Assembly: GCF_031450785.1 (NCBI RefSeq)
Contig: NZ_JARTWB010000002.1
Coordinates: forward strand, 2,232,001-2,296,000
Origin: Caballeronia sp. LZ062
Lineage (GTDB): Bacteria; Pseudomonadota; Gammaproteobacteria; Burkholderiales; Burkholderiaceae
Length of the DNA: 64,000 bases
Direction of reading: 5' to 3'
Positions 39,675 to 53,210 of the stretch are shown here, piece by piece (positions within the stretch are counted from its first letter, which is position 1; every line of letters starts with the position of its first letter). The position numbers were made by a program, and so were the translations under genes. The notes under the pieces were generated by a model. That model was not told where the DNA came from. It saw only the letters and a list, made by a program, of their open reading frames with translations, and ran no database searches.

Positions 39675-39751
39675 AGGGGAGTCGCCAAGTTGGTCAAGGC
39701 ACCGGATTTTGATTCCGGCATGCGAGGGTTCGAGTCCTTCCTCCCCTGCCA
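39675..39751 (+). tRNA. tRNA-Gln (anticodon UUG)
   Basis: A 77-base cloverleaf including an encoded CCA. The acceptor arm AGGGGAG (39675-39681) pairs with CTCCCCT; the anticodon stem CCGGA/TCCGG encloses the loop TTTTGAT with anticodon TTG (39709-39711); the T-arm contains GGTTCGAGTCC. It sits between ispE and prs, as in related genomes. Confidence 0.95.
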
Positions 39752-49843: not shown

Positions 49844-50140
49844 CCCGCTCTCCTGTTTGATGTTATTCGAACGCCGGCGCATACACGCTCGCAGCCGGAA
49901 TCGCAAAAAGCGAGTGTAACGTGCCTGCGCGAATCGTGGCGAGCCTTGTCCGGCGCGGGCGCGCGAGCTTTCGGCTGCCCTGCTGCGATCCTTCGAATCG
50001 CCACCGGATGAGATCGGACGCCTGTGCCCGAACTTGCAAGCGGCGCTTAAATGCGATACTGAATGTCATTACCGCATCTCAACCCGCGACGGCGCCGCTC
50101 AGGACCACGGAAATGAACGCCCGCTTTGCGCACGCTTCCG

Positions 50141-51112
50141 ATGACCGACACTCCACCTTCTTCTTTCCCCTGCGCGCGCTATATCAAGGAAATCGGGCGC
50201 GGCCCGAACGGCGCGCGTGCGCTGTCGCGTGACGACACCTATTCGCTCTACGAAGCCATGCTCGATGGCCGGGTCTCCGACGTCGAACTGGGCGCGGTGC
50301 TGCTCGCGTATCGCGTGAAGGGCGAGACGGCGGCCGAACTCGCCGCGATGCTGGCGGCGGCGCATCGTTCGTTCGAGCCGCTGCACGTGCAGGAAGGCCG
50401 CGAGCACGCACGCCCCGTTTCGATTCCGAGCTACAACGGCGCGCGCAAGCAGCCGAACCTCACGCCGCTGCTCGCGCTCCTGCTCGCGCGGGAAGGCGTG
50501 CCGGTGCTGGTGCATGGCGTCGTCGACGATCCGGGGCGCGTGACCAGCGCCGCGATCTTCGCCGAAGTGGGCATTCCGCACGCCGCGTCGCACGATGAGA
50601 TCGAGGACAGTCTCGCCTCCCGCCGCCTCGCGTTCGCGCCGGTGACGGCTCTCGCGCCGAAGCTCGCGCGGCTGCTGGACCTTCGACGCGTGATGGGCGT
50701 GCGCAATTCGACGCACACGCTCGTCAAGATTCTGCAGCCGTTCGCGGAGCCGGGCTTGCGGCTCGTCAACTACACGCATCCGGAGTATCGCGACAGCCTC
50801 ACCGCGCTTTTCACCGAGCATCCGGATGCCGCGCAAGGCGGCGCGCTGCTCGCGCGCGGCACCGAAGGCGAAGCGGTCGCGGATACGCGCCGCCAGGTGC
50901 AGATCGACTGGTTCCACGACGGCCACGCCGAGACGCTCGTCGCGCCTGAGCGTTCGCAGGCGGACGCGCCCGCCGTCGAACTGCCCGAATCGCTCGATGC
51001 CGCCACAACCGCGCGCTGGATCGAAGACGTGATGCGGGGCGACGTGCCGGTGCCGCCCGCCATCGCGCGTCAGGTGGAACTGATCGCAGACGTGGTGCGC
51101 CGGCCGGTATAG
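50141..51112 (+). CDS. ybiB: DNA-binding protein YbiB (TrpD2 family)
   Basis: A 323-residue protein with the nucleoside phosphorylase/anthranilate phosphoribosyltransferase fold: YIKEIGRGPNGARALSRDDTYSLYEAMLDGRVSDVELGAVLLAYRVKGE and VPVLVHGVVDDPGRVTSAAIF. E. coli YbiB (TrpD2) binds nucleic acids non-specifically and lacks TrpD activity; the same is expected here. ATG 50141 fits the family start. Upstream of leuA, but a promoter and leader separate them. Confidence 0.87.
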   Translation: MTDTPPSSFPCARYIKEIGRGPNGARALSRDDTYSLYEAMLDGRVSDVELGAVLLAYRVKGETAAELAAMLAAAHRSFEPLHVQEGREHARPVSIPSYNGARKQPNLTPLLALLLAREGVPVLVHGVVDDPGRVTSAAIFAEVGIPHAASHDEIEDSLASRRLAFAPVTALAPKLARLLDLRRVMGVRNSTHTLVKILQPFAEPGLRLVNYTHPEYRDSLTALFTEHPDAAQGGALLARGTEGEAVADTRRQVQIDWFHDGHAETLVAPERSQADAPAVELPESLDAATTARWIEDVMRGDVPVPPAIARQVELIADVVRRPV

Positions 51113-51171
51113 CGCCGCAATCGGAAAATCCGCATTTGACACTTTCTTCAACGCTGGTTTAAAGTAGGCCA

Positions 51172-51249
51172 ATGCGTTTCACCCAATTCTCCTCCCTCCG
51201 AATTATTTCGGGCCGCCTAGCGCGGCCCCTATCGCTACGTCTAGCGTAA
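51172..51249 (+). CDS. Leucine-rich leader peptide, putative leuA attenuator
   Basis: A 25-codon ORF: ATG CGT TTC ACC CAA TTC, then on to TAA at 51247-51249; the C-terminal part reads GRLARPLSLRLA. Five codons are Leu and four of these are CTA (51217, 51229, 51235, 51241), a codon hardly used in the surrounding genes; two consecutive Ile ATT codons precede them. The CTA cluster coincides with two alternative-looking hairpins. This is the classical design of an amino-acid attenuator upstream of leuA. It may be read from a leaderless or near-leaderless transcript. Confidence 0.72.
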   Translation: MRFTQFSSLRIISGRLARPLSLRLA

Positions 51250-51265
51250 GTCGCCAGACGTAGCG
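51210..51265 (+). promoter_or_regulatory. Attenuator hairpins overlapping the leader-peptide Leu codons
   Basis: Stem A: GGGCCGC (51210-51216) with GCGGCCC (51222-51228), loop CTAGC. Stem B: CGCTACGTCT (51233-51242) with AGACGTAGCG (51256-51265), both perfect. The 5' arm of stem B contains two of the CTA codons and its 3' arm lies after the stop codon, so ribosome position on the Leu codons decides whether B can form. Further GC-rich sequence (51266-51284) can pair alternatively. Confidence 0.6.
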
Positions 51266-51542
51266 GCGCGCGTCGCCAGGCGCGTGTTCCCGCCAGCCGT
51301 TCCCGCAGTTCTTTTCCTTACCACCTTGTAGTCGTCAGTTTTTCGTTCGCGCATCCCGCGAATCGAAAACGCGAGGGTCACATGCACGCTGCTTCGCGCA
51401 CGTTCACGTTGGTCGCAGGCGTCACCGTCGCCGGTGCGCAATGGGATCGCGCGCGCAGTTCCGCTTCGCGTGCTTCATGTGAATCGCGCCGCAGCCGGCC
51501 AGCCGCCGGCGTCGGCCGCTCTCGCAGGCGCTACGCTCCTGA

Positions 51543-53210
<1,668 letters not shown>

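Follow-up and report, generated by a model that had tools for sequence, protein, structure and literature searches.

We asked if the 445-nt interval that separates ybiB from the long-form leuA gene in this Caballeronia genome holds a leader through which leucine could govern leuA, and, if so, by what read-out. The window (the whole 64,000-nt stretch of DNA that was analysed) had been given a first-pass annotation from its letters alone, which proposed at this site an attenuator with a short ORF carrying four rare CTA codons. The features that we assigned to the interval and its flanks are collected in Table 1; the third covarying hairpin, the promoter spacing of leaderless type, the second small ORF and the second leader elsewhere in the genome had not been part of that annotation.

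Table 1. Features of the leuA leader locus, by position in the window; the last row gives the leader of the second leuA gene, by its own locus and contig.
Feature	Position	Strand	Remarks
ybiB, upstream neighbour	50126..51112	+	NF006005, 471 bits (cut-off 185)
Sigma-70-type promoter	51136..51165	+	TTGACA 51136-51141, 18 nt, TAAAGT 51160-51165
Leader ORF MRFTQFSSLRIISGRLARPLSLRLA, predicted leaderless	51172..51249	+	25 codons; without Shine-Dalgarno core
Hairpin P1, inside the ORF	51210..51228	+	First CTA in loop; compensatory changes in relatives
Control-codon block	51217..51243	+	CTA at 51217, 51229, 51235, 51241
Hairpin P2	51233..51265	+	CTA CGT CT(A) of the ORF pairs with bases beyond the stop
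Hairpin P3, directly after P2	51266..51287	+	Covaries in relatives; no U-tract behind
C-rich, G-poor stretch, candidate Rho-loading region	51288..51357	+	27 C and 12 G in 70
Conserved element GTAGTCGTCAG	51328..51338	+	Complementary to 51523-51535
Hairpin P4	51338..51370	+	Precedes the second small ORF's Shine-Dalgarno
Second small ORF	51382..51561	+	59 codons in the window; GAGGG ahead; stop overlaps leuA ATG as ATGA
Segment upstream of leuA start	51523..51535	+	Predicted partner of 51328-51338
leuA, long-form 2-isopropylmalate synthase	51558..53210	+	550 aa; NF002991, 810 bits (cut-off 455)
Second leader ORF MNFSPFLLSSSSAGAFLRALSLLARLPR, before short-form leuA	L328:1335-1421, contig C2 near 815,700		7 Leu, 4 CTA

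The leader ORF, its codons and its promoter

The ORF of 25 codons with five Leu codons, four of them CTA, followed by TAA, had been drawn correctly to the base: it runs from the ATG at 51172 to the stop at 51247-51249, and besides the CTA codons, which are separated from each other by one to three other codons, it has one CTC at 51196. The rarity of CTA in the surrounding genes was likewise borne out, as this codon made up 23 of 1,888 Leu codons (1.2%) across 48 ORFs of the window, which were chosen by GC3 and some of which may not be genes, and none of the 33 Leu codons in leuA or the 37 in ybiB. Against the 1.2% background, the chance of finding four or more CTA among five Leu codons was about 1e-7, and this was the single site in the 64 kb, on both strands, where four in-frame CTA codons started within 27 bases; the cluster, already judged unlikely to arise by chance, is thus real. 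No curated protein model matched the leader peptide, and leader ORFs of this sort are easily overlooked by annotation.

One promoter-like site was found in the interval 51050-51700, where 0.1 was expected. TTGAC was present 35-39 nt before the leader ATG in 115 of 115 unique upstreams, with the end of the -10 box 6, 7 or 9 nt from the ATG, and a Shine-Dalgarno core preceded 0/115 leader ORFs, compared with 93/131 leuA starts. Because the spacing from promoter to ATG is kept throughout and the Shine-Dalgarno core is absent, transcription is predicted to begin at or next to the leader ATG, giving a leaderless mRNA. Leaderless transcripts in general are described for B. cenocepacia (PMC4603805); the words "isopropylmalate" and "leucine" are both absent from the accessible text of that start-site paper.

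Conservation of the ORF, the CTA codons and the hairpins

A 351-base query gave matches in every other genome of the genus (18 of 18), each with the 25-codon ORF and an identical four-CTA block, and a 116-base query matched in 96 of 249 genomes of the family, from 5 of 25 genera. Loss of the ORF or of its Leu codons in relatives had been named beforehand as grounds for giving up the proposal; both were kept at 57 of the 59 sites examined among those found by DNA similarity, in five genera (the window counted, the extra leuA copy L027 not), in that the leader ORF was intact with CTA at positions -6 and -4 from the stop. The two broken leader ORFs, L061 and L063, each lie in a genome with a broken leuA. 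A pattern scan of named genomes gave at least 120 stretches; among the matches listed, leuA came next in 78 of 80, the other two stretches ended within 40 nt of the leader ORF, and all 80 were titled Burkholderia, Caballeronia, Paraburkholderia or Trinickia. It was across these four groups that the short ORF, the CTA codons and the covarying stems (see below), which the first-pass annotation had suggested looking for, were found.

Several loci depart from this pattern. In the genomes of L061 (G195) and L063 (G245), of 2.8 and 3.7 Mb, both the leader ORF and leuA have decayed. At L132, a Caballeronia locus among the 78, the leader ORF is intact although the leuA motifs fall in two reading frames; the two thus need not decay in step. 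L027 (G006:C28) is a second long-form leuA copy that has kept the downstream part of the leader and not the leader ORF.

Alignment A1 had 57 rows including the window, without L027 and L063, which have no core, and L061, which has no ATG. The set of leaders kept 130 of 140 loci, of which 111 were unique; the ten dropped were L027, L061 and L063 (without core), L149 (merely truncated by the edge of the locus), L151 and L199 (ending before leuA), and L132, L154, L178 and L189 (leuA recognised by other motifs). The core pattern that gave 91 unique ORFs, with starts sought in frame only, itself fixes CTA at -6 and -4, so that 91 of 91 at these positions is no finding and the plain count is the 57 of 59 given above. 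At the codons left free, CTA predominated: codon -2 was CTA in 83 and CTG in 8 of the 91, and in the 76 ORFs with 24-25 codons the position of the CTA farthest from the stop had CTA 69 times, CTG 4 times and CTC 3 times. Codon -6 has an unpaired third base, and the codon preceding it is variable (CCC, CCG, CCT, CCA, TCG, CTT, CTA, GCC).

The leader is predicted to be folded. As first described, P1 and P2 overlap the Leu codons, P1 with arms 51210-51216/51222-51228 (7 bp in the window as against 6 in the family structure) and P2 with arms 51233-51242/51256-51265 (10 bp); their pair probabilities in the folded leader were 0.93 to 1.0, and folding of the first 219 nt of the leader beat its shuffles with a z of -4.7 (0/200). 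The 22 pairs of P1-P3 were formed in 95.8% of alignment cells, 8 of them with changes on both sides, and the 36 cells with such double changes compared with 6.5 in shuffles (0/500) and lay far above slid versions of the structure. In P2 one pair had double changes, in 15 cells (U-A 19, U-G 18, A-U 10, C-G 5, unpaired 5); in it, the third base of the CGN codon that separates two CTA codons is joined to its partner. Since CTA is kept while the hairpins covary, the leader is under codon and RNA-fold constraint alike.

This bears on whether the region might be a structured RNA or an RNA-binding site alone, with the ORF incidental, which we consider highly improbable. The covariation of P1-P3 would be expected of such an RNA, and the ORF's first half contains a nearly fixed CGAATTA; moreover, variability at the three codon positions over codons 2-12, which was 575, 321 and 786 in the 25-codon group, with the third position highest, was 2286, 2030 and 1381 in the 24-codon group, where the third positions are the least variable, which argues against a simple coding signal there. 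But gaps in the ORF columns of A1 were of 3 nt only, and the spacer past the stop varied by other lengths; as the ORF's gaps are whole codons, we infer that it is translated. The ATG at a fixed spacing from the promoter and the CTA kept at an unpaired site also speak against a role for RNA structure alone. The CGAATTA lies at 51199-51205, outside the three hairpins, and is fixed as nucleotides.

A second possibility is that the nascent peptide, together with a ligand, blocks the ribosome, rather than slow decoding of CTA; TnaC is a leader in which the peptide itself blocks the ribosome when its ligand is present. The C-terminal LRI..GRLARPLSLRLA is strongly conserved, which speaks for it, but the residues between the Leu codons are replaced in relatives (ARP to AQL, PRL or AA) while the rare codon is kept, and the unlike leader peptides of other genera have mainly CTA-rich Leu in common. 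We regard this as very unlikely.

Much of the conservation of the leader is shared ancestry within one family, the effective number of sequences being about 23. A covariance model, applied under strict filters and with scoring of few candidates, matched in 3 of 300 genomes sampled from the order, and these 3 belong to the family. One genome of a Paraburkholderia-type genus (G049) had no match to the model; its leuA is 60% identical, and is preceded by another CTA leader.

Judged from these comparisons, the leader is probably a cis-acting leucine sensor of leuA. A leucine-sensing leader is well supported because the ORF, the CTA codons and the covarying stems are all conserved.

Read-out between the CTA codons and leuA

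Most likely, the leader works like leu attenuation, as a variant that lacks the textbook terminator and has an unusual start. To judge from the promoter spacing, the mRNA would begin at the leader ATG or no more than about 3 nt away, and a ribosome would load on the bare 5' end of this transcript. A shortage of leucyl-tRNA for CTA would stall the ribosome in the CTA block inside P1 and P2; the overlap of the block with both hairpins was observed, and the stall is presumed by analogy to the leu leaders of other organisms. Whether P2 forms would depend on where the ribosome, stalled or released, is located, and this might let the transcript continue or leuA be translated; with plentiful leucine, the transcript might undergo Rho-dependent premature termination.

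No intrinsic terminator (hairpin plus U-run) was found before leuA in the window, which upholds the earlier remark that a clean U-tract terminator was missing. Loose terminator matches occurred in 19 of 111 leaders, at differing places, and some of these were P1 inside the ORF. When the CTA block was masked as it would be under a stalled ribosome, the eight printed folds had no alternative helix in common, and no mutually exclusive antiterminator fold was evident in the covariation scan. The bases freed by the mask paired downstream in species-specific ways: over the 111 leaders, pairing of the freed segment more than 100 nt past the stop averaged 12.5 vs 3.5 bases. The pairing of the P3 zone, masked relative to free, had a median of 0.98; it fell below 0.8 in 22 and below 0.5 in 7 of the 111 leaders, at least half being kept in the other 104. 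The seven include L009, sister of the window, and the window itself, in whose sequence P3 is lost under the mask and distant pairing formed instead; this loss in the window and a few others makes a rearrangement possible in its own lineage, and not a conserved one. The first-pass annotation had proposed that stalling on CTA changes the folding: of this, the leucine sensor is supported by comparison, and a conserved switch between alternative folds is not.

Several candidate pairings were tried and rejected. Beyond P1-P3 and P4, an all-pairs covariation scan gave nothing that we trusted, its signal being mostly shared ancestry. An antiterminator formed by the 3' arm of P1 and the 5' arm of P3 appeared complementary by eye in many rows; it was rejected because diverged Paraburkholderia rows lose it yet keep P3. 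The P2 codon arm and GTAGTCGTC matched perfectly by eye in those rows alone that have CGA as the Arg codon; with CGT or CGC in its place GTAGTCGTC does not change, so there is no covariation and this pairing too was rejected. For the Leu codons and the leuA ribosome site, the summed pairing probability was 0.017 in the window sequence.

If the leader is a sensor, Rho-dependent premature termination is our first guess for its read-out, held with slightly less than even confidence, because there is no U-tract terminator and a C-rich stretch follows P3. By its C minus G count this stretch is in the top 0.46% of 70-mers in the window, and the best 70-mer within 190 nt past the stop had a median count of 16 over 111 leaders, compared with 7 (95th percentile 14) in 190-nt background pieces of the window. 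The stretch fits Rho and, by composition alone, provides a statistical hint; the exposure of the C-rich part hardly differed, being 0.50 with the ribosome stalled vs 0.53 free. Directly after P3 there is also a conserved sequence, GTTCCCGCC at 51286-51294 in the window with the consensus GGTCCTCCC in relatives, and GGTCCTCCC resembles an anti-Shine-Dalgarno sequence.

Control of leuA translation is the second choice of read-out for such a sensor, and a doubtful one. The conserved element GTAGTCGTCAG is complementary to the segment upstream of the leuA start, and the energy of this duplex (mean -12.7) was lower than for shuffled targets (-10.1; lower in 99/110) and lower than that of random 16-mers of the same leaders (-9.5; lower in 95/110). 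The pairing, which has partial signs of covariation, may serve translation. Taken as the whole explanation, i.e., leader stalling alters access to the start of leuA or of the second small ORF, GTAGTCGTCAG pairs upstream of the leuA ribosome site, and no transcript ends early, translational control seems to us unlikely. It would agree with the duplex energies, with exchanges of A-U to U-A between some Burkholderia and Paraburkholderia rows, with the 4-nt overlap of the second small ORF and the leuA ATG in most Caballeronia rows, and with the masked fold of the window, in which P3 rearranges to pair more than 100 nt past the stop. However, pairing of GTAGTCGTCAG with the partner of its own species was better than mixed pairings in only 74/110, several off-diagonal cells of the genus matrix were equally low or lower, inspection by eye puts the helix 5' of the leuA Shine-Dalgarno in most rows and its coupling to the leader ORF is hypothetical, Burkholderia and Trinickia rows gave no second small ORF with the pattern used, and strong rearrangement of P3, with less than half of its pairing left, was limited to the 7 of 111 leaders.

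The frame of the second small ORF is kept in most Caballeronia rows though its length differs, and many Paraburkholderia rows have ..VRARSLLPLA.. in it, including a CTA. At L149, L177, L189 and L191 leuA begins only about 200 nt past the leader ORF, and the region of the second ORF is absent.

A leucine sensor without terminator and with a read-out in two parts, in which a leaderless CTA leader with its codons within covarying hairpins is tied to leuA by a conserved element, appears to us rather improbable. If true, the link would span 100-300 nt, with the element pairing next to the leuA start; many Paraburkholderia would be linked as well by a second small ORF with its own Leu codons; leucine would set leuA translation, Rho loading or both; and both leuA isozymes of one cell would bear independent sensors.

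Known leader systems and other leucine leaders of the order

The leader shares with classical leu-type attenuators an ORF between promoter and gene and a run of Leu codons; since neither a terminator nor a shared antiterminator fold was found, it is not classed as one. The E. coli leu leader has 28 aa with 4 Leu (PMC6123439), and CUA serves as control codon in the Salmonella leu leader, where CUG reduces sensitivity (PMC1183508); as far as described there, these LeuL leaders have, like the window, a short ORF with CUA Leu codons between the promoter and leuA. The window leader differs from LeuL in having neither a U-tract terminator nor a shared antiterminator, in its predicted leaderless start, and in CTA codons that are spaced by one to three others. 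The rhizobial trpL attenuator has an intrinsic terminator and carries Trp codons, whereas Leu codons and no terminator are found here. The mRNA of the Sinorhizobium meliloti trpL leader is described as starting at the ATG of its ORF (PMC7298713), a 5' end that for the window leader is only predicted. The actinobacterial LEU element, as presented in PMC1262725, is likewise a leader ORF with Leu codons ahead of leuA, with a mode of regulation that is unsettled; its Leu codons were proposed to pair with the leuA Shine-Dalgarno (PMC1262725), a pairing that the low summed probability noted above makes absent in the window.

No T-box or other Rfam leader family matched the leader at the gathering score, and the one match below it (E 0.75) was on the other strand; the sole Rfam match of the window at the gathering score was a tRNA gene at 39675-39748. 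In the literature covered, which was partial and included few subscription papers, we found no report of such a leader; the supplementary tables of a paper on short 5'UTRs of B. cenocepacia (PMC5688073) may list it. A sensor of this kind would add a conserved, unannotated leucine regulator for a large bacterial group with soil, plant and opportunistic members, and offers a test of leader-peptide control without intrinsic terminators in GC-rich bacteria and of how frequent leaderless leader ORFs are.

The same genome has a second leuA of the short form, 28% identical over the match, and this gene is preceded by its own leader ORF, MNFSPFLLSSSSAGAFLRALSLLARLPR, with TATAGT 6 nt before the ATG and again predicted leaderless. 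The stretch with the short-form leader matched in 22 of 120 family genomes, and in 17 of the 22 loci the pattern found an ORF with 4-6 CTA, each followed by the short-form motif. That two distant leuA genes for one step each have a CTA leader and tight promoter spacing provides strong support for leucine sensing. With separate CTA leaders on two isozymes, leucine sensitivity could be compared inside one cell.

Other genera and families have different Leu leaders at long-form leuA, e.g. MQSIALFSLRVIRLLSQRLSLRRLPALA (5 CTA) and MQNLSLALLLMSNGQRK (4 CTA). Behind the leader, five loci from families f49 and f10 have a hairpin of 9-10 bp and a T-rich tail (interrupted in the two f10 loci), and L109, from genus g33 of the same family as the window, has a 14-bp hairpin with a T-rich tail. 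These leaders resemble that of the window in the short CTA ORF before long-form leuA and, in several, in the tight spacing from -10 box to ATG, and differ from it in the hairpin with T-rich tail, which is found in none of the window's group. A scan of outgroup upstreams gave a summed best CTA/TTA count of 178 vs 125 for shuffled sequences and 111 for the other strand, over 76 rows, among them the leaders of the window and of one same-genus locus, with two loci counted twice; another three loci, in which no leuA motif was found, were left out. Only 19 of the 76 rows were at 0.05 or below, so most single outgroup cases are not significant alone. At L101 and L103, from other genera, tandem Leu-rich small ORFs precede leuA, one of them ending in TLTLALPIG, with three CTA.
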